Assembly (NCBI RefSeq): GCF_021502675.1
Contig: NZ_JAKFHA010000002.1
Location: forward strand, 297,670 to 361,669
Length of the DNA stretch: 64,000 bases
Origin: Yinghuangia soli
GTDB taxonomy: Bacteria; Actinomycetota; Actinomycetes; Streptomycetales; Streptomycetaceae
Direction of reading: 5' to 3'
In this document: one piece after another, positions 24,750-54,180 of the stretch
Layout: every line of letters begins with the position of its first letter
Position numbering within the stretch: position 1 is the stretch's first letter
Position numbers and translations under genes: made by a program
The notes under the pieces: model-generated
The model's input: the letters and a program-made list of their open reading frames with translations, nothing else
Databases searched by the model: none
Told to the model about the DNA's origin: nothing

Positions 24750-24763
24750 CCGGCGGTGCCGGC

Positions 24764-24795
24764 GTCCTCGCTGTGCAGATGCGAACAGCGGGGAC
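24764..24795 (+). terminator. Hairpin after the DUF1772 gene
   Basis: An 11-bp stem (24764-24774 with 24785-24795) with one G-T pair and a 10-base loop. Confidence 0.65.
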
Positions 24796-24902
24796 GGTCT
24801 GGGGCGGATATCCGGTTCATGCGCTCTCAGGCGGTTTGTCGGGTGAATTACCACAGCGCGCTTGATGGTTCCTGGGCGCCGCATCGAGCACTATCCCCGG
24901 GC

Positions 24903-26264
24903 ATGACTATGCACCGAGCCTTACGCGAAGGCCCAACACCCGTACCCAGAGCGGAATTTGGCAATCCGCTTGCGGGTGCACCCGAGATGCTCCACCTGAT
25001 CGAGCAGGGCTTCCCGTCCACCGGCTTCACGATCCCGTTCGCCTTCCGGGTGACCGGCGCGCTGGACACCGGAGTGCTCCGCGAGGCCGTGGCACTGCTG
25101 GCCCGGCGGCACGAAGCGCTGCGGACGCGCGTGGTCGACACCGAGCAAGGTCCGCGCGCTATTGCGGACGCCGAACCGCAGGAGATGGTCACGATCGCCG
25201 CCGGCGATCCCGACGAACTCCTGGAGGCGCAGTTCTCCCGGTCGTTCGCGGCGGCCACCGAACACCCGCTGCGCGTCCTGGTGGTCCCCGCCGGCGACGG
25301 CGAATGGGTCGTCGGAATCCACCTCCACCACTTGTCCGGCGACGCATGGACGCTGGGCGTGCTGATGCGCGACCTGGGCCACTTCTACGGCGAACTGGCC
25401 GCGGGACGCAGCCCGGAGGCCGAGGACGGCCGGCTGCAGCAGATCGACTTCGCAGCCTGGGAGCGCGACGCGGTCGCGCAGAACGTCTTCACCGAGGAAA
25501 TCGCGTACTGGAAGGAACAACTCGCGGGCAGCGCGGGCATGCCGCTGGACGCGCACTCGCCTTCGTACTCCGGAATCTGCCAGCCGTCGGTCGTCGGGTA
25601 CCTCCGGGTGCCGCTGACCGACGACCTCGCGGCGTTCTGCGCCCGGGAGCGGGTCACGCCGTACCCGGTGGTGTTCGCGGCGATGGCCGCGGTGCTGTGC
25701 GGGGAGACCGGGCGTACCGACCTGAGTGTGACCAGTGCAATGGACAACCGGATGTACCCCGGAGTGGAGGAGACGGCGGGCTATTTCGCCAACACCGTCT
25801 TCTTGCGGGCGCAGCTGGACGAGGCCATGCGCGAGGGTTCGGCCGGATTCGATGTGCTGCTCAAGCAGGCGGCGGAGGCCTGTTCGGGCGCGTTCGCACA
25901 TCAGCAAGTGCCGTACCTGGACCTGATGGCGCACGCCGAGACCGGGCTGGGAGTGGGCCGGCCGGTCATTCTGTTCCAGTACTTCTCGCAGGAGTTCGGT
26001 GCACCGGAACTGGCCGGGTGCCGCACCGAGGCCCTGGTGGACGACGCGGCCCGGCGGCGGCTGCTGACCAGCCCGAGCGGGCTGCGCGTCGTGGTGAGCC
26101 GGCGGGGCGCGGGCTTTTGCGCCGAGTTCGTGTGGCAGCCGGAGCTGTGGTCCGAGGAGTACATCGGCGCGATGGCCGACCGGTTCGGTGCCGCGGTCCG
26201 GGCCGCCTGCGCCGACCGCCACGTACCGCTGCGGGACCTGATCGGCGGGGAGCAGGCGCGATGA
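24903..26264 (+). CDS. Free-standing NRPS condensation domain
   Basis: A 453-residue condensation-domain protein. It starts with a short leader, then MLHLIEQGFPSTGFTIPFAF, the usual first strand region. The active-site motif is HHLSGDAW at residues 142-149: both His and Asp147 are present, but the usual Gly after Asp is Ala. Later it shows YWKEQLAG, VTSAMDNRMYPGVEETAGYFANTV and HQQVPYLDL, which match motifs C4-C6. It probably joins an acyl or aminoacyl thioester to the residue held by the next protein. ATG 24903 has no good ribosome site; TATCCC lies five bases before it. Confidence 0.85.
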   Translation: MTMHRALREGPTPVPRAEFGNPLAGAPEMLHLIEQGFPSTGFTIPFAFRVTGALDTGVLREAVALLARRHEALRTRVVDTEQGPRAIADAEPQEMVTIAAGDPDELLEAQFSRSFAAATEHPLRVLVVPAGDGEWVVGIHLHHLSGDAWTLGVLMRDLGHFYGELAAGRSPEAEDGRLQQIDFAAWERDAVAQNVFTEEIAYWKEQLAGSAGMPLDAHSPSYSGICQPSVVGYLRVPLTDDLAAFCARERVTPYPVVFAAMAAVLCGETGRTDLSVTSAMDNRMYPGVEETAGYFANTVFLRAQLDEAMREGSAGFDVLLKQAAEACSGAFAHQQVPYLDLMAHAETGLGVGRPVILFQYFSQEFGAPELAGCRTEALVDDAARRRLLTSPSGLRVVVSRRGAGFCAEFVWQPELWSEEYIGAMADRFGAAVRAACADRHVPLRDLIGGEQAR

Positions 26265-28006
26265 TCTCCATGTTCGAGCGGCATGTTGCCGCGACACCCG
26301 ATGCCGAAGCCGTGGTCGGCGGCGGCGTACGCCTCACCTATGCGGAACTGGACGCCCTGGCCGAGCGCGTGGCGCAGGCACTCACCGCGGACGGGTCGCC
26401 GACCGGGTCCGCGGATCCGGCTGTGTCCGTCGTCGCCGAGCTGCACAGGCCGGTGGCAGGTGCCTTGACCGCGCAGGAGCCGGTCGCCATTGCCGTCCCG
26501 CCCTCGGCCGCGATGATCGCCGCGGTGCTCGGGGTGCTCAAGGCGGGCGGCGCGTACCTGCCGCTGCACCAGGCCTGGCCACCGGCGCGCCGCAGCGAGA
26601 TCCTCCGCGAGGCCGGAGTGCGTTTCGCCGTCGGCGCGTTGGACGACACCGTCGTCGCCGCGCTTGCGGGCGGCGCGCCCTCTGCGGTTGCCGAGGCCGG
26701 CGGGGCCGAGGATGCGTTGGCCTACGTCATCTACACCTCCGGATCCACCGGTACGCCCAAGGGCGTCCAGGTGGAGCGCGGCAACGTCACGGCGCTGCTG
26801 TCCGCGGTGCAGAGCCTGGTCCCGGTCGGGCCCGGCGACACCGTGCTGTGCGTCTCGCCGCTGGCCTTCGACATGTCGGTCGTCGACATCTTCCTGCCGC
26901 TGTGCCACGGCGGCCGGCTGGTGGTCGCCACCGAGGACGAGCGCCTCGACCCGCACGCGCTGGCACGCCTGGTGGACGCGTACGACGTCACGTTCATGGT
27001 CGCCACGCCCACGATGCTGGGCGCTCTGGTGGAGTCCGGCTGGGCGGGCCGTCCCGGCCTCAGGGTCGGCGCGGGCGGCGAGGTGCTCCCCGGGCCTTTG
27101 GCACGTGCGCTGTCGACACGTGTCACCGAGGTGTGGAACGTCTACGGGCCCACCGAGACCACCTACGCGGCCACGTTCCACCAGGTCACAGCGGCCGACT
27201 TCGACGGTCCGGTGCCGCTGGGGCGGCCGCTGGCCGGGGCCCGGGTGGCCGTGTGCGATGCGGACGGCAACCCGGTCCCGACGGGTGAGACCGGGGAGAT
27301 CGTGGTCGGCGGCACCGGCGTGTCCCGGGGGTACTTGGGGCGCCCGGAGCTGACCGCCGAGCGCTTCACCGCGACCCCGGACGGCCGGTGCTACCGGACC
27401 GGGGACCTCGGCCGGCTGCGTCCGGACGGCGTCCTGGAATACCTGGGCCGCGCCGACGGACAGGTCAAGGTCAACGGCCTGCGCATCGAACTGGGCGAGA
27501 TCGAATCGGTGTTGGCGGCCGTACCGGGGGCCGGGCAGGTCGCCGCCGCGGTACGGGGCGACCGGCTCGCCGCGTACTGCACCGGGGCCGCGGACCCCGC
27601 CGCGCTGCTGGCGCACGCCCGCACGCTGCTGCCCGCGTACATGGTCCCGGCCGCGGTGACCCGCGTCGCGGCGCTGCCGCTGCTGCCCAACGGGAAGACC
27701 GACCGGGATGCGCTGCCGTGGCGGGTTGCGCTGCCCCTCCCGGAGCCGGCCGACCCGGATTCGGCCGTGCCGGATCCCGTCACCAGCGCGGTGGGGCGGA
27801 TCTGGCAGGACCTGCTCGGCGTACCCGCGGCCCCCGAGGACGACTTCGTGGACGCGGGCGGCTCGTCGCTCATGCTCTACCGGCTGCGCAACCGGTTCCA
27901 CACGGAGTTCGGCGTCACCATCCCGATGCGCGACCTGCTCGACCACTCCACCATCGCCCAGCAGGCCCGGCTGATCGAGAAAGGACTGACCGATGCTCGA
28001 CGTTGA
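26261..28006 (+). CDS. NRPS adenylation domain plus carrier protein
   Basis: A 581-residue A-PCP protein. The adenylation core has YTSGSTGTPKG (residues 158-168), AFDMSVVDIF, NVYGPTET (293-300), YRTGDLGR and the catalytic Lys479 in NGKTD. By eye the substrate pocket begins D-M-V and does not match a code I know. A carrier domain at 505-575 has DAGGSSL with attachment Ser536. The segment before A2 contains about 20 extra residues (around 50-70). ATG 26261 overlaps the condensation gene by four bases. No thioesterase follows. Confidence 0.92.
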   Translation: MISMFERHVAATPDAEAVVGGGVRLTYAELDALAERVAQALTADGSPTGSADPAVSVVAELHRPVAGALTAQEPVAIAVPPSAAMIAAVLGVLKAGGAYLPLHQAWPPARRSEILREAGVRFAVGALDDTVVAALAGGAPSAVAEAGGAEDALAYVIYTSGSTGTPKGVQVERGNVTALLSAVQSLVPVGPGDTVLCVSPLAFDMSVVDIFLPLCHGGRLVVATEDERLDPHALARLVDAYDVTFMVATPTMLGALVESGWAGRPGLRVGAGGEVLPGPLARALSTRVTEVWNVYGPTETTYAATFHQVTAADFDGPVPLGRPLAGARVAVCDADGNPVPTGETGEIVVGGTGVSRGYLGRPELTAERFTATPDGRCYRTGDLGRLRPDGVLEYLGRADGQVKVNGLRIELGEIESVLAAVPGAGQVAAAVRGDRLAAYCTGAADPAALLAHARTLLPAYMVPAAVTRVAALPLLPNGKTDRDALPWRVALPLPEPADPDSAVPDPVTSAVGRIWQDLLGVPAAPEDDFVDAGGSSLMLYRLRNRFHTEFGVTIPMRDLLDHSTIAQQARLIEKGLTDARR

Positions 28007-29120
28007 CGACCTCATCGGCACCGCCGTACGCGAGACCGGGCTGGAGGACTTCGGCGGGCAGGCGTTCCGCGAAGGGCTCGAGCACCTGGTCGCCGACGTG
28101 AACGGACCGGCCAAACTCACCACCGACGGCGCGAACATCATCCAGGGCCTGATCACCGGGATGCTGTCGCACCGCCTCCAGGTGGTCGACTGGGCGGCCG
28201 GCCACCCCGAGGTGACCGCCGCCGAGGTCGAGCGTCCGCTGTTCGTCATCGGCCCGCCGCGCACCGGCACCACCCTGCTGAGCGGCCTGCTGCACGCCGA
28301 CCCCCGGCGCCGGGCACCCCTGCGCTGGGAGGCGATGCGGGCCGTCCCGCCGGTGCAGGCCGACGCGCTCGAGACCGACCCGCGGGTGGCGGAGGAAGAG
28401 GCGTCGCAGCTGTTCATGGACGCGCTCAACCCCGGCTTCAAGGCGATCCACGACGAGCCGGCCACCGGGCCGACCGAGTGCGTGTCGATCCTCGCGCAGG
28501 ACTTCCGCGGCCTGCTGTTCGACGTGATCCTGGAGGCGCCGTCGTACCGGGAGTGGAACCTGGACTGCGACCACACCTCGGCGTACGACTACCACCGGCT
28601 CCAGTTGCAGGTCATGCAGAGCCACGCACGCGGCTGGTGGACGCTCAAGGCCCCCACCCACGCGCTGACCCCGGAGTACATCCTGGCCCGCTACCCGGAC
28701 GCCCGGTTCGTGGTGACCCACCGCGACCCGGTGGCGGTGATCTCCTCGGTCTGCAGCTTCGCGCGCTCGATGCGGCGGGTCTTCTCCGACGTCCCGTTCG
28801 CGGCGGCCGAGCACTGGACGCGGGTCGTGGAGCTGTCCGCGACGCGCATAGCCGACTTCCGGGCCGCGCACCCGGACGTCCCCGTCGTCGACGTGCGCTA
28901 CCCCGACCTCGTCGCCGACCCGGTCGCCACCATGCGCCGCATCTACACCGAGGTGGGCGACCCCCTCTCGGCCGATACGGAAGCCCGCTGGGCCGCGTAC
29001 ATGCAGGAAAACCCGCAGGGCAAGTTCGGCCGGCACGAATACTCGACCGCCGAGTTCGGCCTGTCCACCGAGGCAGTGCGCGAACGGTTCGCCGGCTACA
29101 CCGCCGACTGGGACCTCTGA
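27993..29120 (+). CDS. PAPS-dependent sulfotransferase
   Basis: A 375-residue sulfotransferase of the Sulfotransfer_3 type. The 5'-phosphosulfate loop is FVIGPPRTGTTLLSGLLH (about residues 84-101) and the 3'-phosphate segment is FVVTHRDPVAVISSVCS. It transfers sulfate from PAPS to a hydroxyl or amine. The start overlaps the end of the A-PCP gene by 14 bases, so it belongs to the same operon and probably sulfates the bound or released NRPS product. No PAPS biosynthesis genes are nearby. A perfect hairpin follows the stop. Confidence 0.9.
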   Translation: MLDVDDLIGTAVRETGLEDFGGQAFREGLEHLVADVNGPAKLTTDGANIIQGLITGMLSHRLQVVDWAAGHPEVTAAEVERPLFVIGPPRTGTTLLSGLLHADPRRRAPLRWEAMRAVPPVQADALETDPRVAEEEASQLFMDALNPGFKAIHDEPATGPTECVSILAQDFRGLLFDVILEAPSYREWNLDCDHTSAYDYHRLQLQVMQSHARGWWTLKAPTHALTPEYILARYPDARFVVTHRDPVAVISSVCSFARSMRRVFSDVPFAAAEHWTRVVELSATRIADFRAAHPDVPVVDVRYPDLVADPVATMRRIYTEVGDPLSADTEARWAAYMQENPQGKFGRHEYSTAEFGLSTEAVRERFAGYTADWDL

Positions 29121-29766: not shown

Positions 29767-30657
29767 TCAGGCGACCGCGGCCACACCGTCCACACGATGC
29801 CGGGCCATCCAATCGGCGCCGAAGCCCACCGCGGGGATCAGCGGCACCAAGCGCGTGTCCGCCGAGCCGACGAAGCCGTGCCCCGTCGCCACGTGGTCCA
29901 GCATCTCCAGGCCGATCCGCTCGAAGTCGCGCAGGTCCAGCGTCACGTCCTCGTACGTGAACCACATGGCGCGCCCCAGTCCGTCGGGGATCACGCACCG
30001 GTAGGTCCGGGCGGCCAAGGTGGGCTGGAGGTACTCCGCCAGGTGGAAGGCGGTGAACGTGGAGAAGGCCGTGCCCAGCATCAGCACCTTCGTGTCGGGC
30101 AGCGCGTACAGCCGGGCCAGCGGGGAGTGCTCGCCGAAGTGCGAGGCCGGGTTGTGGTGGCGCAGGATCGTCTCGGCCAGCAGCCCGATCGCCACGAACG
30201 ACGACTGCGGATGCGAACTCCGCACCGCGCCGGGGGTACGCCGGAGCAGTTCCGCGAGACCGCCCATGGTCGGGGACGCCGGGGTCCACACCGGGTCGAA
30301 GGCCGGCATCGCCCGCTTGAAGGCCTCCTTCTCCGATGCGCTGAACCCGGTGGTCGCGCGCTGGAACGCCCACGAGGTGTCGGAGTTCTCCTCGGTGAAC
30401 GCCGGCATCACCAGCGTGCCGGCCGGGCCGACCGCCTCTAGCAGGGCGTCGAGGACGTCGCGCGCGCCGCGGGCCAGCCGGCCGACACTGCGCAGCGCGC
30501 CGTGCACGAGCAGGACGTCGCCGGGACGGACTCCGATGTCGCGCAGCGCGCCGACGAGTTCGGGCACGGTCCAGGGTTCGGTCCTCGGCGGCCCGGGGAC
30601 GTCTGCCGAAGGCCGGCTCCAGACCGCCAAGCGCGCGTCTTCGTCCTGGGAATTCAC
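29767..30657 (-). CDS. AAC(3)-family N-acetyltransferase, copy 1
   Basis: A 296-residue homologue of aminoglycoside 3-N-acetyltransferases, which move acetyl from acetyl-CoA to an amine. Family signatures: VLLVHGALRSVGRL, MPAFTEENSD, SHPQSSFVAIG, HFGEHSPLARLYALP and MLGTAFSTFTAFHLAEY. GTG 30657 overlaps the radical SAM gene by four bases, so the two are co-translated. That link suggests the real substrate is the modified peptide encoded upstream, or its use as self-protection, rather than an aminoglycoside. A paralogue lies at 34222. Confidence 0.88.
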   Translation of the reverse strand: MNSQDEDARLAVWSRPSADVPGPPRTEPWTVPELVGALRDIGVRPGDVLLVHGALRSVGRLARGARDVLDALLEAVGPAGTLVMPAFTEENSDTSWAFQRATTGFSASEKEAFKRAMPAFDPVWTPASPTMGGLAELLRRTPGAVRSSHPQSSFVAIGLLAETILRHHNPASHFGEHSPLARLYALPDTKVLMLGTAFSTFTAFHLAEYLQPTLAARTYRCVIPDGLGRAMWFTYEDVTLDLRDFERIGLEMLDHVATGHGFVGSADTRLVPLIPAVGFGADWMARHRVDGVAAVA

Positions 30658-31898
30658 GCCGTATCCTCCACATCACGAGCCCGTGCCAGGTCCGCGGTCA
30701 ACCGGCCGCGGACGTGTTCGATGAACCGGATCAGGTCCGGGCAGTACACCGACGGCCCGCCGAACCCCGCGCCCGCGCGGTAGCGGTGGGTGAAGTACCC
30801 ACCGCCGCACACGTCCCGGACCTGGCAGGCGCGACAGGTCGCGCCCAGGCCGGCCGCGCCCAACTGCCGTGCGGCGAGCCCCGGGTGGCGCAGCGCGTCG
30901 TCGAAGGAGTGGGACGTCACGGACATCCCGGTGGCCGCCGCCCCGTCGTACACGGACTTGAGCGTGTCGACCTGCTCGATCATGCCGTCGGTGTCGATCA
31001 CGACGACCGACGCCGGTCCCGGACCCAGTTGCTCGGAACGGCTCGGGCCGCCCAGCAGCAGCGAGAGCACGTCCTCGAAGAGGCGCACGCTGGTCTCCGC
31101 CTGCTCCGTGCCGTACCAGCGGTCGAAGGCCGCGGCCAGCCAGTCGCCGTAGGGTGCGGTCGGCGCGTCCTCGTCGCGCGACGGCGGCGGTGTGTCCCAA
31201 CTTCCATGCGGCAGAAGGAAGTCCATGGCGGGCGGCGCGAGTGACAAGAGGTCCTCGTACACCTCGACCGGGTCGTTCGCGAGGTCGATCGTGCACAGCA
31301 GGCCGCCGAACAGGCCGGGCCGGGACGGGGCGCGGAGCCGGGCGACGGCCTCGGCGACGGCCGCGTGGCTGCCGCGTCCGTCGGCGTACCGGCGGTGGCG
31401 GTCGTTGGCCGCCTCGCCGCCGTCGAGGCTCACGCCGACGGAGACGCCGAGTGCGTACAGCGCGTCCAGGCTCGCGTCGTCCAGCAGCAGGCCGTTCGTC
31501 TGGATCGCCAGCGACACTTGGGTGTAGTCGGGGACCGCTCGGCGAACCGCTTCGGCCAGGCGGGTGATCAGCCCCATGCCGACCAGCATCGGCTCGCCGC
31601 CGTGCACGATCACCGTCACGGCGTCCAAGCGGTGTTCGCGCGCGTGCTCGCCGATCCGGAACGCGGTCTGGTCCGCAGCCTCCGGCGACATCGCCTTGCC
31701 GGCCGCCTGCCACGACTGGTCGGCCATCTCGTACAGGTAGCAGTAGTCGCATGCGAGGTTGCAGCGGCTGTGCACCTTCACGACGAAGTGCCGCAGGGGG
31801 ATGGGGTGCCACAGGGCCCCGAACGCCCGGTGCGAGGGGACGTTCAGCGGCCACTCGGCAGGCGTGCGCACGCGCGCCGGAGTGGGCAGGAGCTCCAC
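30654..31898 (-). CDS. FxsB-type radical SAM/SPASM peptide maturase
   Basis: A 414-residue radical SAM enzyme. The SAM cluster motif is CNLACDYC (Cys46, Cys50, Cys53). The glycine motif is VIVHGGEPMLVG. A SPASM-type C-terminus holds Cys355, Cys358, Cys364 in CRACQVRDVCGGGYFTHRY and Cys386. This is the layout of the FxsB group that forms cyclophane links between Phe rings and nearby side chains in peptides ending in F-x-S-x-x. GTG 31898 follows AAAGGA. Its gene lies between the precursor and an AAC(3) gene on the same strand, with a four-base overlap to the latter. Confidence 0.9.
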   Translation of the reverse strand: MELLPTPARVRTPAEWPLNVPSHRAFGALWHPIPLRHFVVKVHSRCNLACDYCYLYEMADQSWQAAGKAMSPEAADQTAFRIGEHAREHRLDAVTVIVHGGEPMLVGMGLITRLAEAVRRAVPDYTQVSLAIQTNGLLLDDASLDALYALGVSVGVSLDGGEAANDRHRRYADGRGSHAAVAEAVARLRAPSRPGLFGGLLCTIDLANDPVEVYEDLLSLAPPAMDFLLPHGSWDTPPPSRDEDAPTAPYGDWLAAAFDRWYGTEQAETSVRLFEDVLSLLLGGPSRSEQLGPGPASVVVIDTDGMIEQVDTLKSVYDGAAATGMSVTSHSFDDALRHPGLAARQLGAAGLGATCRACQVRDVCGGGYFTHRYRAGAGFGGPSVYCPDLIRFIEHVRGRLTADLARARDVEDTA

Positions 31899-31970
31899 GC
31901 CGTATTCCTTTCACACGACAGGGGCGACGCCCCGCGTGGCGGAGGCGTCCGAAGGGATCGAGCACGAGCG

Positions 31971-32020
31971 CGCGGGGCCGGGGGGGGGGGGGCCCCCAGC
32001 CCCCCCCCCGGCGCCCCGCG
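31971..32020 (-). terminator. G13/C10 hairpin between precursor and maturase genes
   Basis: A run of 13 G (31980-31992) faces 10 C (32000-32009) around a CCCCCAG loop, with CGCGGGGCC and GG-CG-CCCCGCG extending the stem. It lies 74 bases after the precursor stop and 72 bases before the maturase start. It probably works as a partial terminator or mRNA end-stabiliser that lets precursor exceed enzyme. Confidence 0.6.
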
Positions 32021-32093
32021 CGCCCCCCGGGGCCCGGGCGTCGGGCGCCCCGAGCCCCGCGCGCTGCGCGCTGCGCGCACAGGTCTGCCGGAG

Positions 32094-32327
32094 TCAGCCG
32101 ACGTAGCTGTTGAAACCGCTTGAGACGTAGCTGTTGAAGCCGCTCGGGACATAGCTGTTGAAGCTGCTCGGGACGTAGCTGTTGAAGCTCCCCGGAAGCG
32201 GGCTGCCCGGCCTGCCGGCGCCGGCCCGGGCCTGACGCAGGGCGCGGCCGAGGGGGGAACCCGCAGGGATCGCGGTGGCGGGGCCCGCGGTGCCCGGCCC
32301 GTCGAGGACTGGAACGGCGTACGTCAT
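32094..32327 (-). CDS. Multi-core cyclophane-type RiPP precursor (FxsA-like)
   Basis: A 77-residue peptide starting at ATG 32327 behind AGGGAG. Residues 1-46 form a leader with Pro/Gly/Ala segments and AGSPLGRALRQARAGAG. Residues 47-77 consist of four near-identical 8-residue units, each with FNSYV (Phe at 48, 56, 64, 72), separated by PSS, PSG and SSG, with a final Gly. FNSYV fits F-x-S-x-x, the pattern modified by FxsB enzymes, which normally occurs once at the C-terminus; here it occurs four times. The maturase gene is next downstream. Product structure and activity are inference. Confidence 0.85.
   Translation of the reverse strand: MTYAVPVLDGPGTAGPATAIPAGSPLGRALRQARAGAGRPGSPLPGSFNSYVPSSFNSYVPSGFNSYVSSGFNSYVG
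32101..32196 (-). repeat. Four 24-base tandem repeats encoding the core units
   Basis: ACGTAGCTGTTGAA (one copy with ACATAG) recurs at 32101, 32125, 32149 and 32173, exactly 24 bases apart. The repeat lies inside the precursor gene and indicates unit duplication in frame. Confidence 0.95.
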
Positions 32328-32627: not shown

Positions 32628-34247
32628 GTGAGCAGCACTATCCGACGACGCGGGCCGGATCTGCTCGCGCACAGTCTGATCGGCGCCTTGGCCGGACTCA
32701 ACCTCCTGGCCCTGGTGGTGGCCGTGGCCACGTGCGCACGAGGTCAACTGGCGTGGACGGCGGCCACCGCCGCCGCCGTAGTGGGCCTCGACGTCCTCGC
32801 GGCACTGGCCCTGCGCGGGCGCGAACGCCGACACGTCGACGCGTCCGCGCGCTACCTGCAGTCGCCGGCGCACATGACCCGGAACACCACGGCCGGGGCG
32901 CAGCGTGTCGCGGAGGCCATGGGGTACGGCGACCTCGGCACCCCCGGGTTCTACCTGGGCAGATCCGTGCGGGGAAAGCGCGACCTCTGGGGCACCTGGG
33001 AAGACGTGTACGTCGAGATCTCGGGCACCGGCATGGGCAAGACCACGGCACGGGCCATCCCCAACATCGTCACCGCCCCCGGGCCGGTGCTGGTCACGTC
33101 TGCCAACCATCATGTCGTCGCGGCTACCCGGGGGATCCGTGAACAGCGGGGCAAGACCTGGGTGTTCGACCCGCAGGACGTCTCCGGAGAGCCGAACTCC
33201 TGGTACTGGAGCCCCCTGTCGATGGTGGGCGGCGACCTGAAGGACGCGATGTCGCTCACGGGTCTGTTCATCTCCACACAACGCAAGGAGCACCACCGCG
33301 CCGACGCCTACTTCGAGCCCGCCGCGCAGACGCTCATCGCGGTGCTGATGCTGGCTGCCGACGGCGGCGACCGCCCCATCACCGATGTGCTCAAGTGGCT
33401 GCGGCGTCCGGACGACGAAACACCCACGGACATCCTCCAAGGCATGGGCGGGCGCGACTTGGCGGTCGACGCGGTGCGCGCCGTGACCATGCTGCCGGCG
33501 GAACAGCGGGCCGGCGTTCTCGGCGTGGCCCGGCAGTACATGGCGTGGCTGGCGGTACCGGAGATCATTCCGTGGATCACGCCGGGCGGCGGCCGTGAGG
33601 AGTTCCCGTTCGTCAAGTTCGCGCGCGAGTCGACCGACACGCTCTATGTGATGTCCCGCGCCGACGACAAGACCGCCTCCCCGGCGGTCAGCGCACTCAC
33701 CGCGGCCTCCGTCGTGGCCGGCCAGACCGGGTCCGTGAGGATGCCCGGCGGCCGCCTGCGCAAGCCGCTGCTGGTGGTGCTCGACGACCCCTCGAACGTC
33801 GCCCAGATCCAGTTCTGGCCCACCAGGTACTCGCACTTCGGATCGCGTGGCGTGATCGTGATGACGCTGCTCCAGTCGTGGTCCCAGGGCGTCGCCGTGT
33901 GGGGGGCCAACGGCATGGCGAAGCTCTGGGGGGCGTCGTCCGTCCGGGGGGTCGGCGGCGGCGGGTCCGAGACCGGAATGCTCGGGGACATCGCCACCAT
34001 GTCCGGCAAGTTCGAGGCGCGAACCGTCGGCATGTCGTTCACGCCGCCCTCGGTCCAGCCGTCCGTCACCCTGGGCAGCCGGGCCGAGGGGATCCTCGAC
34101 CCGTCGGATATCGCCGGTCTGCCTCGGGGCCGGTTCCTCATCCAGGTGAGCGGCCGGCGCCCCGTCCTGGCCGAGTCGGTGCCGTGGACGGACGGGCCGC
34201 ACGCCGACGCGATCCGGGCGTCTATCGCGAAGTACGCTCGCCGGTAA
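32628..34247 (+). CDS. Type IV coupling protein (TraG/VirD4-like) paralogue
   Basis: A 539-residue membrane ATPase. Two helices lie in the first 65 residues, then a RecA-like motor with Walker A GTGMGKTT (133-140) and a Walker B-like LLVVLDDPSN (381-390) in which the usual Glu is Asp387. FDPQDVSGEPNSWYWSPL and SHFGSRGVIVMTLLQSWSQG align with the same parts of the coupling protein at 48432, so they are paralogues. Such proteins feed substrates to type IV secretion channels. GTG 32628 starts the gene. Its 3' end overlaps the convergent AAC(3) gene by 26 bases. Confidence 0.88.
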   Translation: MSSTIRRRGPDLLAHSLIGALAGLNLLALVVAVATCARGQLAWTAATAAAVVGLDVLAALALRGRERRHVDASARYLQSPAHMTRNTTAGAQRVAEAMGYGDLGTPGFYLGRSVRGKRDLWGTWEDVYVEISGTGMGKTTARAIPNIVTAPGPVLVTSANHHVVAATRGIREQRGKTWVFDPQDVSGEPNSWYWSPLSMVGGDLKDAMSLTGLFISTQRKEHHRADAYFEPAAQTLIAVLMLAADGGDRPITDVLKWLRRPDDETPTDILQGMGGRDLAVDAVRAVTMLPAEQRAGVLGVARQYMAWLAVPEIIPWITPGGGREEFPFVKFARESTDTLYVMSRADDKTASPAVSALTAASVVAGQTGSVRMPGGRLRKPLLVVLDDPSNVAQIQFWPTRYSHFGSRGVIVMTLLQSWSQGVAVWGANGMAKLWGASSVRGVGGGGSETGMLGDIATMSGKFEARTVGMSFTPPSVQPSVTLGSRAEGILDPSDIAGLPRGRFLIQVSGRRPVLAESVPWTDGPHADAIRASIAKYARR

Positions 34248-35076
34248 GAGCCTTGCCGGCGAAGTGGGCACCGGGCTCACTGCCTTGCCGCCCGTTCATC
34301 CACCGCACCGCGAAGTCGACCGCGGGGGCGAACGGGACGATCGTCGCGGTCGCGTCCCCCACGGGACCGGTGGACGGGGACTCCGCCGCCCCCGCCGAGT
34401 ACGCCGCACCGATCTCGGCGAAGTCCCCGCCGTCCAGATCGATGTCGCCGTGGCTCCACCACTCGCCGCGGCCGTCCGCACCGGGGACGACGCAGCGGTA
34501 GATGCGCTGGCGCCGCGCCGGCCCGCGGTATTCGGCGAGGTGGAACGCGCTGCAGGCGGCGAAGCCCGTGCCGAGCATCAGGATCTTGGCCTGCGGCAGC
34601 GCGTACAGCCGCGCCAGCGGCGAGCGTTCGCCGAAGTGGCAGGTCGGGTCGTGATGCGCCGTGACGACCGCCGCGTGGCGGCCCAGCGCCGCGAACGAGG
34701 AGATCGGGTGGGCACTGCGGTGGCTGCCGGGGCATAGGCGCAGCACCTCGGCAAGCGCGCCGACCACCGGCGAGGCCGGTGTCGTGGCGGCCCTGAAAGG
34801 CGGCATCGCGGCCCGGTACTCGCGTACCTCGTCCGCGGTCATCCCCGCGGTGGCCTTGCGGTACTGGTCGGAGGTGTCGGAGTTGTCCGGGGTGAACGCC
34901 GGCACGACCACGGTCCCGGCCGCCCGGCCGACGGCCCGGCGCAACGCACCCAGCACGGTGGCGGCACCGCCCTGGACCGGGCCGAGCGAGCGCAGTGAAC
35001 TGTGCACCAGTACGGTGTCGCCGTCGGTGATCCCGAGGGCGCGGAACTGGTCGACGATCCGCTCGACATCATGCAC
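34222..35076 (-). CDS. AAC(3)-family N-acetyltransferase, copy 2
   Basis: A 284-residue paralogue of the acetyltransferase at 29767. Shared signatures are VLVHSSLRSLGPVQ, VPAFTPDNSDTS, SAHPISSFAALG, HFGERSPLARLYALP and MLGTGFAACSAFHLAEY. GTG 35076 overlaps a 16-codon open frame just upstream by eight bases, which has its own ribosome site. Two members of this family close to one RiPP locus suggest a tailoring or self-protection function; aminoglycoside resistance remains possible. Confidence 0.87.
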   Translation of the reverse strand: MHDVERIVDQFRALGITDGDTVLVHSSLRSLGPVQGGAATVLGALRRAVGRAAGTVVVPAFTPDNSDTSDQYRKATAGMTADEVREYRAAMPPFRAATTPASPVVGALAEVLRLCPGSHRSAHPISSFAALGRHAAVVTAHHDPTCHFGERSPLARLYALPQAKILMLGTGFAACSAFHLAEYRGPARRQRIYRCVVPGADGRGEWWSHGDIDLDGGDFAEIGAAYSAGAAESPSTGPVGDATATIVPFAPAVDFAVRWMNGRQGSEPGAHFAGKALTGERTSR

Positions 35077-36301: not shown

Positions 36302-36586
36302 CCGCAGCCGGATTCATCCCGGCACGCCGATCCGCGGCGGTGCCGGGATATCCGATGCCGCGGTCCCGGGGAAATCATCTCGGCAATCCCGGAGTTGACA
36401 AGACCAGTGCGGCGCGTGAACGTCCGGGGCGACCGGATGCGCTGAGTTCCCTGCGCATCCTGGCCACATCGCGACTGCGCGCAAGGAATGCGGCAATGAT
36501 GGCCGGACCGGCCATGCCGGGCTGATCCGCTGCGGGTGAACCGGCTGAAAGGGCCGGGGCGGCAGGTATCCAAGGAGGACGTGAGT

Positions 36587-37633
36587 GTGCGACGGCCACA
36601 GGAGACCGAGCCGGAGAATCCGCAATCGGCCGCGGTGTCGGCGGAGCACACGACGCGCGGCGAGATATACCGCGGGGACGACCCCGACATCGTCCAACGC
36701 GTGACCAACGCCCGTTTCACCCGGCATGAACTGGATATCGTCGGCAACCGGCCGCTGGACTTCGACTTCCAGGCACTGCACATCGGCCGGCTCGCCGCTT
36801 ACGACTTGTCCTACGGCACCGATGTGCGGACGCTGCCGGTCGAACCGACCGCCCAGTACGTCATACGGCTCGGCCACACCGGGCGGGCCTCGTTCAATGT
36901 GCAGGGAAAGACCACCCCGTTCTCACCGAGCATCCTCAATCCCGGGCAGGCGGCCGTCGCGCACTGGGACGCCGACACCCGCACGCGGTTCCTCTGCGTG
37001 CCGCGAAGACACATCGACGCGGCGGTGCGGAGCCGCACGAGCGAGCGCCACGAAGGGCCCCTCATCTTCGAGAACCGGATGTCCGAGCAGGACCCCGCGG
37101 TGGCGGCATGGCTGGGCCTGGCCCGCCGCTTCGCCACCGGCGCGGGCACGTGGATGGCGTCGTCGCCCTTGGCCATCGGCCACTTCGAGCGGCTCCTCGT
37201 CGACCTGCTGATCTCCGTGCAACCGGGCGACCGCCTGCTGGAACCGGCCCGGACCCGGCGCACGTTCGGACTCGGCCCGCTGCGCCGGGCCATGGCGTTC
37301 TGCGAGGCGAACGCGCACCGGCCGATCTCGGTGAGCGAGATGGCCGCCGTCGCGCGGGTCTCGGTCCGGACCCTGCAGGCCGAGTTCCGGCGCTCCTTGG
37401 ACACCACACCCATCGTCTACCTCAGGGACCTGCGGTTGCGCGGCGCACGCGACGACCTCCTGGAGGTCGCCGCCGGCCGCAGCGACGCGACGATCACCGA
37501 GATCGCGAACAAGTGGGGGTTCCCGCAGCGCCGCTACTTCACGGCGTCGTACGCGCGCGCGTTCGGGCGGCTGCCCTCCGAGGACGCGCAGACGACACCG
37601 GGGAGCTTGGCGACGAGAGGGGTTGCGTTGTGA
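36587..37633 (+). CDS. AraC family regulator 1
   Basis: A 348-residue regulator. GTG 36587 is eight bases after AAGGAGG; GTG 36581 is too close. Residues about 30-190 form an AraC-type sensing domain, and two helix-turn-helix units fill the C-terminus (RPISVSEMAAVARVSVRTLQ, then TEIANKWGFPQRRYFTASYA). It overlaps the next gene as GTGA. A paralogue lies at 39492. It may control the neighbouring peptide locus. The 285-base gap before it has CGGCAATCC and GCGGCAATG. Confidence 0.88.
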   Translation: MRRPQETEPENPQSAAVSAEHTTRGEIYRGDDPDIVQRVTNARFTRHELDIVGNRPLDFDFQALHIGRLAAYDLSYGTDVRTLPVEPTAQYVIRLGHTGRASFNVQGKTTPFSPSILNPGQAAVAHWDADTRTRFLCVPRRHIDAAVRSRTSERHEGPLIFENRMSEQDPAVAAWLGLARRFATGAGTWMASSPLAIGHFERLLVDLLISVQPGDRLLEPARTRRTFGLGPLRRAMAFCEANAHRPISVSEMAAVARVSVRTLQAEFRRSLDTTPIVYLRDLRLRGARDDLLEVAAGRSDATITEIANKWGFPQRRYFTASYARAFGRLPSEDAQTTPGSLATRGVAL

Positions 37634-39491: not shown

Positions 39492-40628
39492 TCAGCCCAC
39501 CGCGCGACCGCCGCCGGTTCCGACCGACTCGCCCAGCCTCAACGTCTGGGACGGAAGGCGCCCGTAGGCTGCCCGGTAGAGGGCGCCGAAGCGTCCGAGA
39601 TGCCCGAAACCCCAGCGCAGCGCGACATCGGTGACGGTCTCGTCGCTGCTGCCGTTGGCGACGGCGACCAGGTCGGCGTGCGCCCCGGCGAGCCGCACGT
39701 GGCGCAGATGGGCGACCGGAGTGACGCCCAGGTGGGCCCGGAACTTCTCCTGAAGGGTGCGCACGCTCATGTTCCCCGCCGCGGCGATGTCGCCGACCGA
39801 AATCGGCTCGGATGCGTGCTCCTCGCAGAACGCCAGGGCGCTGCGCAGCGAGACGGGGGCGCCGACCGGGCCGCTGCTGGGGATGTCGGAGTCGTGCGTG
39901 TGCGGTTGGCAGGCCAGGAGGCCGTGGACGAGCATCTGCTCGAAGTGCGCGGTGGCGCCCGGCGACCGGGTCAGCAGGCCGGAGTCGACCATCGAGACGA
40001 AGCTGTGCGCCAGCGAGATCCACTGCTGTACTTCGGCGTTGGCGGTGTCGAGGACCGGGTCGAAGAGGATCGGCGCGTCGGAGTCGACGGCTCCCACATA
40101 GGGGCGGATCGCCGCGTCCAGCACTCGGCGCGGGACGCGCAGCACGAGTGCGCTCGCGTCGGGGGTCCACAGCATGGAGACCTGCCGGCCGGGCCCCGTC
40201 ACCACCGGCGCCGGCGGTGCCTCCCGGCCGTCGATCAGGATCCGCCCGCCGTTGCGGACCAGATGGACGAGATAGACGGGCGCCTGGGCGTCCAGCCGGA
40301 GTTCGGCGTGCGTCCCGTAGCCCAGCTGGTAGAGCGCGATCTCGCCGCGGTGCAGCATCCGCAGCTGGGCCCGGACCCCGCTCGCTTCGGGAATGCGCAG
40401 CCGATGCGGGACGACGTGCGAGCCGACCGCGTGGTGCATGAGCCGCGCGTCGGCGCCCTGGTAGACGACCCGGCCGCGCGGCCGGGTCGTATCGGGGGAT
40501 GCCGGCGGGTGCGGCGTCGACGGGAAGGCACTCGGCAGGGCCGGTGCGGACTCGGGCAGCCCGTCCGCAGCACCTGGAGTCGGGAGGGGAGGGACGAGCA
40601 CGGGGCGAGGACGAGCCGTCGCGGACAC
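39492..40628 (-). CDS. AraC family regulator 2
   Basis: A 378-residue paralogue of the regulator at 36587. A Pro-rich N-terminal 50 residues are followed by the sensing domain (RLMHHAVGSHVVPHRLRI, LHRGEIALYQLGYGTHAEL) and a helix-turn-helix pair (EPISVGDIAAAGNMSVRTLQ, TDVALRWGFGHLGRFGALYR). GTG 40628 has AGGAG seven bases upstream. It lies on the same strand as the ligase gene but 203 bases away, with motifs in between. Confidence 0.88.
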   Translation of the reverse strand: MSATARPRPVLVPPLPTPGAADGLPESAPALPSAFPSTPHPPASPDTTRPRGRVVYQGADARLMHHAVGSHVVPHRLRIPEASGVRAQLRMLHRGEIALYQLGYGTHAELRLDAQAPVYLVHLVRNGGRILIDGREAPPAPVVTGPGRQVSMLWTPDASALVLRVPRRVLDAAIRPYVGAVDSDAPILFDPVLDTANAEVQQWISLAHSFVSMVDSGLLTRSPGATAHFEQMLVHGLLACQPHTHDSDIPSSGPVGAPVSLRSALAFCEEHASEPISVGDIAAAGNMSVRTLQEKFRAHLGVTPVAHLRHVRLAGAHADLVAVANGSSDETVTDVALRWGFGHLGRFGALYRAAYGRLPSQTLRLGESVGTGGGRAVG

Positions 40629-43803: not shown

Positions 43804-45414
43804 TCAGCGTGCGCTCGGTGTCGGTGTTGCTGTCGGAGACCCGGAGGCCGGTGAAGTGCCCGGTGCCGTCGTGGGCGCGGTGACCGGCGCCGGTGGCGCC
43901 ACCAGGACCGAGGACTTGCTTTCGCTCCATGCGTCGCCGTTCTTGACCTCGAAGACCCCGTTGCCCTGCCCGATGAACGTCTTCGGGATGACGGTGCCCC
44001 GCGCAAGCGCCTCGATCTTCCCGGTCCCGATCCGGACCACCGCGAATTCCGGGTCCTCGTCGTCGTCGTCCAGCAGTCGCGCGTAAGCGACGCCCGCATC
44101 GTCCACCGAACCGAGGGACACCGCCCGGATGTCGCGGTTGCCGGCGTGGCAGGCCGCGGTTCCGGCGGACAGATCGGCGCTGAACGCCCCGGAGACCAGA
44201 TAGCGCTGGTTCGGGGACGTCTGCGCGTCGGTCGCCAGTTCCTCGTCCCGTCCTGAACCGAACAACTTCTCCGTCTCCTCGGCGAAGTCCGGTGTGCCGG
44301 CGGTGCATTCCACGGATGCGCGGACCTGCCCAGTGGCCAGGTCGTGCACGGTGTACAACGGCGGCTGCTGCTTGTCGTCCGTCCGCCACACGGCGAGCAG
44401 CACCGTGGGGGTGACCGCCAGGAGCCTCGACTGGGTGCGGCCGGCGGGTGTGACGGCGGCGCTGTTCCACCGTCCGGTCACTCCGAAGCGCAGGTCGACT
44501 CCCGAAGCGCCGCTCGCCCCGGCCTCGCGGAAGACCGTGCCCGCCGAGGACGGGTGGAGCGGGACCTCGGTGATCCCGCACCGTACGTCCGACGCGCAGT
44601 TCGGCGCCTGGCGGGTGGCGGGTGCGCCTTGCGTCACGGCGTTGCCGGACAGCGGATCCCACACGATGACCTTGGCGGTACCCTCCTCCGATGGTTCGTC
44701 CGCCATCAGGACGCCCCCCTCCCCGATGACGATGTCCACCTTGTCGGCATCCCCTTCCACCATGTGTTCCAGGTGCCGGGCCGGTGCGCGCTCGCCGCTG
44801 TCGCCGGCGATGGGGAACGAATCGGCCACCACCAACTGCCGGGCCCGTGCCACCCCGTTGGTCGGCAGGCCTCCGACCCGGACGACGACCACGTAAGGCC
44901 CCTGGCCGGTCTGGACGACCCGCAGCATCGGGACCTGCTCCGACATGATCCGGCGCATCGGCGTCGACGACCAGGCCACCTCGCCGTTGTCGGCCCGGCG
45001 GGCGATCAGGACGGAACTCACCGTCGACCCGGCGGATCCCGACGGCGACGGACTCGCCTCGGACGGCGCGGCCGAGGGGGACTTGGAGGCCTCCTCGCGG
45101 GCCTGCTCGGCCGAGTTGCCCGCGGCGTAGATGTCGAGCACGAGTCCGCTGCGCTGGTCGACCGTGAACACCCGTCGGGTCTCGTCCACCGACCAGCCTT
45201 TGGCGAGGTCGAACCCCGGCGGCAGCCGGATGTCCGCGCCCTTGGCCGGCGCCGCCGAGGTCGGATTGCGGGCCGCGCCGCTGGCGGACGTGCCTTGATC
45301 CGCCTGCCCGCTCCAGCATCCCGTGAGCAGCAGCGGAAGCACGGCCGAACCGGCCGCAGTCCGCACGTGTCTGCGGGACCCCGGCTTCGGGAGACCGAGG
45401 AGACGCCATTTCAT
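43804..45414 (-). CDS. Lipoprotein with beta-propeller-like body
   Basis: A 536-residue exported lipoprotein. The signal peptide ends in LLLTGC (Cys33). The body contains repeated short strands, including SSVLIARRADNGEVAWSS, AKVIVWDPLSGNAV and LLAVWRTDDKQQPPLYTVHD, which resembles a PQQ or WD-type propeller. A Pro/Thr/Ser tail ends the protein. Three Cys-containing spots (CASDVRCG, VECTAG) could form disulfides. It probably sits outside the membrane with the secretion-like complex. It is 63 bases from the next gene. Confidence 0.65.
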   Translation of the reverse strand: MKWRLLGLPKPGSRRHVRTAAGSAVLPLLLTGCWSGQADQGTSASGAARNPTSAAPAKGADIRLPPGFDLAKGWSVDETRRVFTVDQRSGLVLDIYAAGNSAEQAREEASKSPSAAPSEASPSPSGSAGSTVSSVLIARRADNGEVAWSSTPMRRIMSEQVPMLRVVQTGQGPYVVVVRVGGLPTNGVARARQLVVADSFPIAGDSGERAPARHLEHMVEGDADKVDIVIGEGGVLMADEPSEEGTAKVIVWDPLSGNAVTQGAPATRQAPNCASDVRCGITEVPLHPSSAGTVFREAGASGASGVDLRFGVTGRWNSAAVTPAGRTQSRLLAVTPTVLLAVWRTDDKQQPPLYTVHDLATGQVRASVECTAGTPDFAEETEKLFGSGRDEELATDAQTSPNQRYLVSGAFSADLSAGTAACHAGNRDIRAVSLGSVDDAGVAYARLLDDDDEDPEFAVVRIGTGKIEALARGTVIPKTFIGQGNGVFEVKNGDAWSESKSSVLVAPPAPVTAPTTAPGTSPASGSPTATPTPSAR

Positions 45415-45477
45415 GACGGAACTTCCTTGCTGTCGTGAGGGGAGCGCCGGACAGGCGGCGGGACGCCGCCGGATCGG

Positions 45478-46212
45478 TCAGTCCAATTCGTAGCCCGTCA
45501 CCCGCCAGGGCTGGTCCACCGCCGAGCGGCCCAGGGTGACGTAGACGGTCAAGGTGTCGGGAACGCCCCGCCACCCGCTGTCCGCAACGGGGCTGACTGT
45601 CACCGCCCACGTGCGCAGGGCGGTCGTCGGCGTGTCCGGCGGCTTTCCGGCCTCGTCGTTCGGCACGGCCGTGGCGACGGTGCGGCCTTGGTGGCCGGCC
45701 ATCTCGAGCCAGGCCTGCGAGGGCCTGATGGCCGCGCCCTCGCGTGCGGCCTGGACGAGCGCGGGGCTCAGAAAGGGGGCGGCCCTCAGGGTCCCCGCCT
45801 CGGCGTTGGCGTCCTTGGTCGTGTCGACTGTCCACATGGTCAGGACCGCGGCACGCGACACGGCCGACGGGTCCTTCATGTCGACCTGGGCTGCTTGCGG
45901 AGGCGGCGGCGGTGGCGCCGACGTCGGGGGCGGCGGATCGTCGTGCCGGTCCATGGGCGTCGGGGGAGTGGTCGGAAGCGCGGTCGTCGGCTCGGCGGCG
46001 GGCGGCGTCGCCTCGCCCGGACCGCCCTCGGTTGCGGGAGCGTCGGTCGGTGCGGTGGAACCGGTGGGCGGTGCGGACGGGCCGGTGGCGGCCGGCGAGG
46101 TGCTGCCAGGGGGCTTCGTCACGTCGCACGCATACACGACCGCAAGGATGAGAAGGACGACAAAGGGCGCGACGAACAGCATCCGCCGCCAGGTCGTCGT
46201 GATGTCGTTCAT
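45478..46212 (-). CDS. Membrane-anchored protein, possible VirB8-like
   Basis: A 244-residue protein: short cytoplasmic start, one helix (MLFVAPFVVLLILAVVYAC), a Pro/Thr-rich linker of about 75 residues, and an outer domain (DPSAVSRAAVLTMWTVDTT, VTVSPVADSGWRGVPDTLTV, PWRVTGYELD) with an NTF2/VirB8-like pattern. VirB8-type proteins nucleate type IV channels. ATG 46212 overlaps the hydrolase stop by four bases. Confidence 0.55.
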   Translation of the reverse strand: MNDITTTWRRMLFVAPFVVLLILAVVYACDVTKPPGSTSPAATGPSAPPTGSTAPTDAPATEGGPGEATPPAAEPTTALPTTPPTPMDRHDDPPPPTSAPPPPPPQAAQVDMKDPSAVSRAAVLTMWTVDTTKDANAEAGTLRAAPFLSPALVQAAREGAAIRPSQAWLEMAGHQGRTVATAVPNDEAGKPPDTPTTALRTWAVTVSPVADSGWRGVPDTLTVYVTLGRSAVDQPWRVTGYELD

Positions 46213-47759
46213 GCGTTCGCCCAGGTCGGTTGCGGGTTGAGGCCCTTGGAGCGCAGGTAGGTGATGGGATCGATGTCGCTGCCGTAGTTCGGTCCGGTGC
46301 GCGCCTCGAAGTGCAGGTGCGGGCCGTCCGAGTTGCCCGTCGAGCCGACCTTGCCGATCTGCTGTCCGCCGGAGACGCGTTGGCCCACCGGGACGGGAGA
46401 TCTCTCGATCATGTGTGCGTACTGCGTGTACTTGCCGTCGTCGTGTCTGATGACGACCGCGTTGCCGTACGGACCGGTCGTGGTGTTGGCCACCACCTCG
46501 CCCGGCCCCACGGCCTTGACCGGGGTGCCGAAGCCGACCGGGAAGTCCACGCCCGTGTGCTTTTTCGCCCACGAGCTGCCCGAGGCCTTGTAGGTCGGCG
46601 AGTACCTGGCCTGCACCGGCATCGTCCACTTCCCGGGCGGTACCTGGGATCCCCGGCCCGAGTCCGGGACGCGCACAAAGAAAGGGTTGTACGCGCCGTA
46701 GTGGCCCGACGTCACCGAGGAGATCTTCACGACGTCTCCGGGCTTCGGCGCCTGGATCATGGTGATCTCCCACTTTTCGGTCTTTTTGTCGTACTCCACC
46801 GCACTCACCAGGCCGATGTGTGTGATGTTGGTGATGACGCCACCGCCGGATCCGCTGAGGTCGAAGCCGACCAGATCGCCCGGCCGCACCCTGGTCGGCG
46901 GCACGAGACCGGGGTCCTTGAACTGGTCGATCTGCTGCTGGGCGGTGCGATCGAGGTCGATGCCGACCGCCTTGTATGCGAACTGGGTCAGGCCTGAGCA
47001 GTCCACCCCGTTCATCGCATCGGGGCCGTCCCCGCCCCACAGGTACGGAACGCGCCGCTTGACGAACTCCATGGCCACTTGGATGACCCGCTGGGCACGT
47101 GCGCTGGCGCCGAGGGAGCCCGGGTCCGGGGGTTTGGTGAACCCGTGCATCATGTCGGTGATGATGCGGATGTAGTTCGTGGTCTCGTTGTAGGGAGGTA
47201 CGCCGCTGTACTTGAGCACCTTGTTCGGGCCTGCGTTGTAGGCCGCGAGCATGAGCTTTTGGGTGTCGCCGCCGAGGTGCCGGATCACACCGGCCAGATA
47301 GCAGTCGTAGGCGCCCTGGGAGGCGATCGCGTCCGCCGGGTCCCAGATGTCCTTGTCGCCGTCCCCGTCACCGTCCACCCCGTGCCCCGCCCATGTGTCG
47401 GGGGTGAACTGCGCCGGACCGAACGCCGCTGCATCGGGTTTGTCCGCGTTGGTGTTCAGGCCGAACGACGACTCCGCGTACAGCTGCGCGGCGATCAACT
47501 GAGGCGGTGCTTCGGGGCAGATGCTGCCCGCCTTGATGATCATGGATGCCCAATGCAGGGCGTGGCCGGGGAGTTTGGCGGGGTCGAAGATCAGCCCGAG
47601 CGCGTCCCAGCCCAGCTCGTAGGCCTGCTTGGCCTTCCAGATCATCGTGCAGCCGGTCAGCAAGGACAGCGCAAGCGCAATCGCGAGCAACCTCGTCGGA
47701 GCAGCGTCTCGCCGCGCCCGGGTGCGGCGCCGGGTGCCGCCGGCCACGGATCCGATCAC
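46209..47759 (-). CDS. Three-domain peptidoglycan hydrolase lipoprotein (SLT, NlpC/P60, M23)
   Basis: A 516-residue lipoprotein with lipobox LLTGC (Cys37). Residues about 82-200 are a lytic transglycosylase (Glu96 in AESSFGLN, AFGPAQFTPDTW, AAYNAGP). Residues 222-345 are NlpC/P60 (Cys254 in DCSGLTQFAY, His314 in ITHIGLV). Residues 380-505 are an M23 metallopeptidase (HTGVD at 401-405, HLHF at 481-484). Together these can cut both glycan and peptide, to open the wall for a secretion channel, like VirB1. GTG 47759 overlaps the small upstream gene by four bases. Confidence 0.92.
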   Translation of the reverse strand: MIGSVAGGTRRRTRARRDAAPTRLLAIALALSLLTGCTMIWKAKQAYELGWDALGLIFDPAKLPGHALHWASMIIKAGSICPEAPPQLIAAQLYAESSFGLNTNADKPDAAAFGPAQFTPDTWAGHGVDGDGDGDKDIWDPADAIASQGAYDCYLAGVIRHLGGDTQKLMLAAYNAGPNKVLKYSGVPPYNETTNYIRIITDMMHGFTKPPDPGSLGASARAQRVIQVAMEFVKRRVPYLWGGDGPDAMNGVDCSGLTQFAYKAVGIDLDRTAQQQIDQFKDPGLVPPTRVRPGDLVGFDLSGSGGGVITNITHIGLVSAVEYDKKTEKWEITMIQAPKPGDVVKISSVTSGHYGAYNPFFVRVPDSGRGSQVPPGKWTMPVQARYSPTYKASGSSWAKKHTGVDFPVGFGTPVKAVGPGEVVANTTTGPYGNAVVIRHDDGKYTQYAHMIERSPVPVGQRVSGGQQIGKVGSTGNSDGPHLHFEARTGPNYGSDIDPITYLRSKGLNPQPTWANA

Positions 47760-47959
47760 GGTGTTTTGCCCAGGGACTGCTTCAACGCGTTCCGCACCGC
47801 CAGGCCGGGCGTCAGGTTCGGCTCCGCCATGAACGAGGCGCCGACCTTGCCGACGGCGTTCAGCGCCGGCTCGAGACCCTGCTGAGCCGTGTCGAGGACC
47901 TGGTTGGCCATCCCGACAACACTGTCCAACGTCGTCTCATACCCATCGAAGACACCCAT
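47756..47959 (-). CDS. Small protein of the secretion-like locus
   Basis: A 67-residue mostly helical protein (ETTLDSVVGMANQVLDTAQQ, LAVRNALKQSLG) without membrane segment. Function is unknown. ATG 47959 is four bases after the DUF4913 stop region and its own stop overlaps the hydrolase start. Its size and helix pattern would suit an adaptor or secreted helper. Confidence 0.6.
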   Translation of the reverse strand: MGVFDGYETTLDSVVGMANQVLDTAQQGLEPALNAVGKVGASFMAEPNLTPGLAVRNALKQSLGKTP

Positions 47960-47963
47960 GCGA

Positions 47964-48428: not shown

Positions 48429-48431
48429 GTG

Positions 48432-54113: not shown

Positions 54114-54180
54114 GTGCCTTCCTGTTCCTGCGGTCCGGTGGTGCGGTGGTGGCGCACCTGGTGCGACGGCGTGTGCCGGA

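Follow-up and report, generated by a model that had tools for sequence, protein, structure and literature searches.

A putative multi-core triceptide-type cassette built around an FxsB radical SAM enzyme in Yinghuangia soli

In a 64-kb stretch of the Yinghuangia soli genome (64,000 nucleotides of contig NZ_JAKFHA010000002.1, hereafter the window), a 77-residue peptide carrying four copies of the motif FNSYV is encoded ahead of a radical SAM/SPASM enzyme of the FxsB family, and an acyltransferase gene of the AAC(3) fold adjoins the enzyme gene. Judging from sequence, we consider it probable that these genes form a cassette for a ribosomally synthesized and post-translationally modified peptide (RiPP) of the triceptide type, in which one Phe–Ser cyclophane would be formed per core, the leader would be removed and the new N terminus would be acylated by the AAC(3)-like enzyme. 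The cassette appears to belong to a known class of modified-peptide system, in an uncommon form with several copies of the core.

The precursor and its FxsB enzyme

The four FNSYV units begin at precursor residues 48, 56, 64 and 72, a period of exactly 8 residues, as the first-pass annotation of this DNA had described. They are encoded by a tandem array (period 24 nt, 3.7 copies, 90% matches, score 143; Tandem Repeats Finder). When the residues of the 77-residue precursor were shuffled, some 5-mer occurred at least twice in 1,356 of 100,000 shuffles, a figure that does not isolate four in-register copies. Genome-wide, the FN-S-YV codon pattern matched five times: four matches lie in the window precursor and one on another contig (locus L010), the first 20 kb of which contain the match and hold no open reading frame of 25–149 residues with such a core. 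The precursor has a leader motif, SPLGRALR, at residues 24–31, neither Lys nor Cys anywhere, and an average mass of 7682.42 Da; its last unit reads FNSYVG, so that one extra residue follows the final core and there is no F-x-S-x-x terminus. Profile searches returned no family match for the precursor, and tblastn against plasmid records returned zero matches.

The adjoining enzyme had been named as an FxsB, and profile scores agree: it reached 483.8 bits against TIGR04269 (cut-off 370; residues 35–397 on model positions 1–362 of 363) and 51.1 bits against PF04055. The three cysteines of the radical SAM CxxxCxxC motif (C46, C50 and C53) and four cluster cysteines towards the C terminus (C355, C358, C364 and C386) are invariant across the six members of the tree group described below. 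The interval originally proposed for the system, 30654–32327, spans the precursor and FxsB but omits the overlapping PF02522 gene (copy a in Table 2).

For the chemistry we turn to MscB, which we take to be an FxsB-type enzyme (IPR026335). MscB is reported to form a bond between Phe C4 and Ser C-beta (PMC11002830); together with the NCBIfam label 'cyclophane-forming' for FxsB, this bears out the earlier statement that such enzymes form Phe-centred cyclophanes, and it is from MscB chemistry that we infer one cyclophane per core. The nearest solved relative by sequence is ChlB (PDB 9gm3 and 9gmc; 267.9 bits to 9gm3), which a title in a reference list calls a radical SAM 'multiple cyclophane synthase'; going by that title, it makes several cyclophanes per peptide. 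Radical SAM proteins of the ChlB type are described, in work cited in PMC12636437, as fused to an alphaKG-HExxH domain; the window enzyme is unfused, and the window encodes no HEXXH partner for it.

Related loci and the number of cores

Relatives were sought in three overlapping genome samples (family, 394 genomes; relatives, 396; class, 394), a named genome collection and plasmid records. FxsB enzymes above the cut-off occurred in 283 of the 394 family-sample genomes, and close relatives of the window enzyme (E ≤ 1e-145), which were rare in the samples, in 2 of the 396 relatives genomes, namely Y. soli itself, where the enzyme occurs twice, and its congener G018. At the same threshold the family sample again gave these two, and the class sample one other genome, G560 (4.9e-146). 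A scan of the named collection gave 7 loci, including one in Streptomyces avicenniae at 59%, and matches were present in 16 plasmid records, including Streptomycetaceae bacterium NBC_01309 (79.2%) and Embleya sp. NBC_00888 (65.5%). In all, the analysis took in 94 FxsB rows from 91 loci (6 in the group defined below and 85 outside it), 92 rows of which were placed in an IQ-TREE tree, midpoint-rooted for drawing only; L122 and L165, with a stop in the aligned stretch, were omitted. Two more loci, L017 and L018, have an FxsB below 200 bits; they are excluded from these row counts and included in the 93 loci whose neighbours were searched.

One tree group unites the window enzyme with five further FxsB enzymes (support 99/96; Table 1). 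Within it, the window enzyme joins the genome's own second copy and the NBC_01309 enzyme (100/100), followed by those of Embleya (99/92), G018 (100/99) and then S. avicenniae; the Y. soli genome (9.7 Mb, 96% complete) therefore holds two multi-core FxsB loci, the window and L009. The precursor sits directly before FxsB at all six group loci, and S-P-L lies 18–24 residues ahead of the first core in every group precursor. Among the 25 group cores, position 3 is always Ser and position 1 is Phe in 24 (Tyr in Embleya), with N or S at position 2 and Y, A, H or F at position 4; the linkers between cores vary in length and letters. Several cores per precursor, as had been suggested for the window, are thus also found at four further loci of the group (3–7 cores). 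Because single-core Embleya nests among multi-core members, a single-core ancestor would imply at least two changes in core number.

Table 1. Precursor cores at the six loci of the FxsB tree group
Locus	Cores	Spacing (residues)
Window	4 FNSYV	8
Y. soli, second copy (L009)	7 GFSSY	10
NBC_01309 (L152)	6 GFSS(Y/H)	12
G018 (L078)	3 GFNSYV	8 and 10
S. avicenniae (L012)	4 NFNSAA	9
Embleya (L153)	1 GYNSFV	

These cores also bear on a proposal that Tyr in each unit might react as well. The Tyr position is Ala in 4, His in 2 and Phe in 1 of the 25 cores, and a Tyr(i)-to-(i+2) C-beta bond would be impossible in the last window unit because Gly follows there (Y-V-G); we rejected a Tyr cross-link for the group as a whole.

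The next tree row beyond the group belongs to G560 (L156; 87/90). Its precursor (at about 4560–4935, FxsB orientation) has one C-terminal core, FEAVI, which is F-x-A rather than F-x-S and still passes TIGR04268 at 31.4 bits. Outside the group, a single core near the precursor C terminus was seen at 31 of the 85 loci (23 used below for a leader profile, plus L014, L016, L091, L096, L130, L133, L134 and L137), and no credible tandem F-x-S was seen at the 85 loci, where those lacking an identified precursor were covered by a motif scan alone. Tandem motifs at L080 (FQDGG/FGDGG) and L088 (WDSAA/WASAA) were judged to be chance, neither being F-x-S, and codon-position G+C argues against L080 as a gene. 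Two side observations concern these loci: the S. avicenniae multi-core open reading frame (L012:5532–5897) has a possible earlier start, which would add an Ala-rich stretch resembling a signal peptide, and paired FxsB genes lie close together at L014 and L016 (Nocardia) and at L175.

Acyltransferases and other neighbours

The coordinates of the cassette are given in Table 2. The FxsB stop and the start of acyltransferase copy a overlap by 4 bp. RNA of the region between precursor and FxsB (31890–32105) is predicted to form stable hairpins (−148 kcal/mol, z −2.7), possibly lowering enzyme output relative to the precursor; the spacer scan found no T-tailed terminator, and a sigma-70 scan was likewise empty.

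Table 2. Features of the cassette in the window
Feature	Coordinates	Strand	Basis
Multi-core FxsA-like precursor, 77 residues, ATG start	32094..32327	minus	Open reading frame list
24-nt tandem repeat array encoding four cores	32100..32188	minus	Tandem Repeats Finder
G/C-run-rich spacer, precursor to FxsB, 195 nt	31899..32093	minus	RNA folding
FxsB-family radical SAM/SPASM enzyme, 414 residues, unfused	30654..31898	minus	TIGR04269, PF04055
AAC(3)-fold acyltransferase copy a	29767..30657	minus	PF02522, 217.8 bits
AAC(3)-fold acyltransferase copy b	34222..35076	minus	PF02522
VirD4/TraG-like ATPase, hydrophobic N terminus, divergent from precursor	32628..34247	plus	PF12696, PF02534
AraC-type regulator (AraC_binding_2 + HTH)	36536..37633	plus	Pfam

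Neighbours were searched in fetched stretches of mostly 4.5–6 kb per side (some less; the NBC_01309 locus lies near a plasmid end), and the counts were repeated by blastp on all open frames, tblastn having missed the Embleya TraG-like gene. AAC(3)-fold genes scoring above 100 bits were present at 5 of the 6 group loci and at 10 of the 87 others, with a weak match at L103 (64 bits). All three PF02522 matches in the Y. soli genome lie at its two multi-core loci (two in the window and one at L009), and copy b is closer to the G018 enzyme (57.5%) than to copy a (49.8%). Both copies share the fold family of FrbF and the AAC(3) enzymes, and FrbF acts outside aminoglycosides. The nearest solved structure to copy a is FrbF (3sma, 153 bits). 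Unlike AAC(3) acyltransferases proper, the window enzymes sit in a peptide cassette and fall below the AAC_3 model cut-off (copy a 178 and copy b 169 of 270 bits), and four other AAC(3) models likewise gave scores below cut-off.

A VirD4/TraG-like ATPase and an AraC-type regulator are present at three of the six group loci (the window, G018 and Embleya) and at none of the 87 others; blastp of the fetched stretches found none at L009, L152 and L012. TraG-like genes are common on plasmids of actinobacteria, with 362 records matching at E ≤ 1e-30, and a second such gene lies in the window (48432–50249, minus strand, 48% to the first copy), so the link of the TraG-like gene to the peptide appears weaker than that of AAC(3). 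The region around this second copy, 43804–56375, resembles a conjugation-type gene group: it encodes a protein combining SLT, NlpC/P60 and M23 domains, and several of its open reading frames lack a Pfam match. A second AraC-type regulator (39492–40628, minus strand, 33% to the first) is also related to those of G018 and Embleya.

Further out, genes for a non-ribosomal peptide synthetase (NRPS) condensation domain protein, an adenylation-carrier protein and a sulfotransferase stand in a row at 24756–29120 (plus strand) and flank the cassette; we read them as a separate small gene cluster. The sulfotransferase, a kinase-like gene and a 149-residue open reading frame were considered as cassette parts and rejected, a search covering these three, not the NRPS genes, having found no relatives at the other 92 loci. 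By Pfam matches, a TgpA-like transglutaminase and a MoxR-type AAA ATPase lie at 58437–63333, probably an ordinary MoxR–TgpA group. A MoxR–vWA conflict system is reported for FxSxx loci (PMC7159879); on Pfam matches alone, that assignment was set aside for the genes at 58–63 kb.

Weighing the cassette and its likely product

Set beside FxsA/FxsB triceptide systems (TIGR04268/TIGR04269, MscB type), the window has in common an FxsB above cut-off, a precursor just upstream and an F-x-S core; it differs in its tandem cores in place of one C-terminal core, in the residue after the last core, in the absence of a TIGR04268 match and of a HEXXH enzyme, and in its TraG-like and AraC neighbours. Several results weigh against the proposed cassette, the first of them on the side of the precursor. 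Against TIGR04268 (FxSxx-COOH, cut-off 28 bits), the window precursor gave no match at E ≤ 10, either at full length or trimmed to the leader and first core, and no other multi-core precursor matched in either form; the single-core Embleya precursor reached 13.9 of 28 bits. Because the model proved sensitive on single-core precursors (10 of 10 matched, 7 above cut-off), the missing match counts against FxsA membership, and the term 'FxsA-like' of the first-pass annotation is borne out in part. By profile comparison, then, the window enzyme is an FxsB family member and its precursor lies outside the FxSxx-COOH family as modelled.

By eye, the S-P-L region aligns with the leaders of 23 precursors that have a single core, all from FxsB loci outside the group. 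The profile built from them was compared with leader plus first core of each group precursor, using 500 leader shuffles each. Shuffles scored as high in 3 of 500 cases for the window and in none for Embleya, a clear separation; separation was weak for S. avicenniae (14) and G018 (32) and absent for L152 (115) and L009 (496). The likeness to FxsA leaders thus seems weaker than the alignment by eye had suggested. The lack of significant leader likeness at L009 and L152, and of any family match for the window precursor, would suit a repeat protein that is no RiPP and that neighbours FxsB by chance. We regard this as very improbable: a precursor stands immediately ahead of FxsB at six loci, F-x-S is retained despite changes in linkers and spacing, and S-P-L recurs in all six. 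No homologue without an FxsB neighbour was found, a weak test, as the homologues were found via FxsB.

Other points on the same side concern the cores and the partner genes. The core codons in the window precursor are nearly uniform, and the identity of the cores may in part reflect recent duplication. No linked protease is among the identified genes of the cassette. Across the 64-kb window, no match to the HEXXH partner (TIGR04267) was better than E 1.3, and HEXXH genes near FxsB occur at 73 (tblastn) or 72 (blastp) of the 87 non-group loci and at one of the six in the group, L009; a HEXXH enzyme as the releasing or tailoring step was accordingly set aside for the window. Separately, two HEXXH matches elsewhere in the genome, G000:C48:2099–2623 and G000:C78:253394–253918, agree exactly in score and frame length and may reflect duplication of a contig end; the latter match lies about 4 kb upstream of the L009 precursor.

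As for the acyltransferase, all ten non-group AAC(3) loci belong to a single second FxsB branch (13 rows), whose precursors, as far as seen, are single-core, and an AAC(3) gene is therefore no hallmark of multi-core loci; S. avicenniae has no AAC(3) within its 13-kb stretch. That last result, and membership in the fold family of aminoglycoside resistance, would accord with a producer-protection or resistance enzyme, or a mere neighbour, in place of a tailoring enzyme. We think this unlikely, given scores under the cut-off of all five AAC(3) models matched (best 178 of 270 bits), FrbF as nearest solved structure, the overlap of the gene with FxsB, the placement of all three genome matches at FxsB loci and the presence of AAC(3) at 10 of the 13 loci of the other branch.

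On the tailoring reading, the leader with SPLGRALR would recruit FxsB, which, by radical SAM chemistry as in MscB, would bond the Phe ring to the C-beta of Ser within every F-N-S, with a loss of 2 Da per core and up to four such losses (−8.06 Da). A protease from outside the cassette would cut off the leader, and the AAC(3)-like enzyme could then acylate the freed alpha-amine, the expected target because the precursor has no lysine and leader removal would supply an amine. From synteny, the AraC-type protein might regulate the cassette, and the VirD4-like ATPase might export or assemble the product.

What the repeats would yield is more finely balanced. Each precursor could free four short single-cyclophane peptides, perhaps N-acylated, in which case repetition would multiply the dose of a single small active unit; we give this a little less than an even chance. 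The window cores are identical, and after the first core Lys is absent from all six precursors save for the penultimate residue in L152, which would leave a freed alpha-amine as the main target of an N-acyltransferase. Release is favoured because core number (1–7) and spacing (8–12) vary within one enzyme group and a one-core relative exists, and the dose reading in particular because that relative, Embleya, keeps a single core; this fits a unit working alone and argues against one continuous product. Such a product, with four 3-residue cyclophanes strung on Pro/Ser/Gly linkers and acylated once at the N terminus, is nonetheless a serious possibility, because neither a linked protease nor, by eye, a cleavage motif shared among the linkers was seen, which also counts against release. 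It has precedents in ChlB, going by the cited title above, and in TvgA/TvgB of Halomonas, whose TVGG-repeat peptide is modified repeatedly along its length by a radical SAM enzyme (PMC9062424). TvgA/TvgB resembles the window in its tandem-repeat precursor and repeated motif modification and differs in its chemistry (cyclopropylglycine as opposed to a cyclophane) and in its unrelated repeats. Taken together, we find multiplied dose more likely, with a chain of cyclophanes nearly as likely.

No FNSYV-repeat product was described in the literature searched by title or abstract start; the key triceptide papers lie outside that search and may mention multi-core FxsA. The letters FNSYV do occur in papers whose titles concern a kiwifruit gene and proteins of serum or plasma. 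We know of no earlier RiPP tailoring role for the AAC(3) fold or for a coupling-protein ATPase. A separate triceptide subclass, with multi-core F-x-S cyclophanes (released or as a chain), a dedicated AAC(3)-fold peptide N-acyltransferase and a VirD4-like export motor, would be a bolder reading of these loci, and we hold it to be doubtful.

Together, the six related enzyme–precursor pairs, two of them in one genome, offer a series of 1, 3, 4, 4, 6 and 7 cores that suits three questions: whether a single radical SAM enzyme can work its way down a chain, what influence the number of cores and their distance from the leader have, and whether the repeats would serve dose or a polymer. In addition, the close linkage of an AAC(3)-fold gene points to a testable role in peptide acylation for a fold known from resistance.

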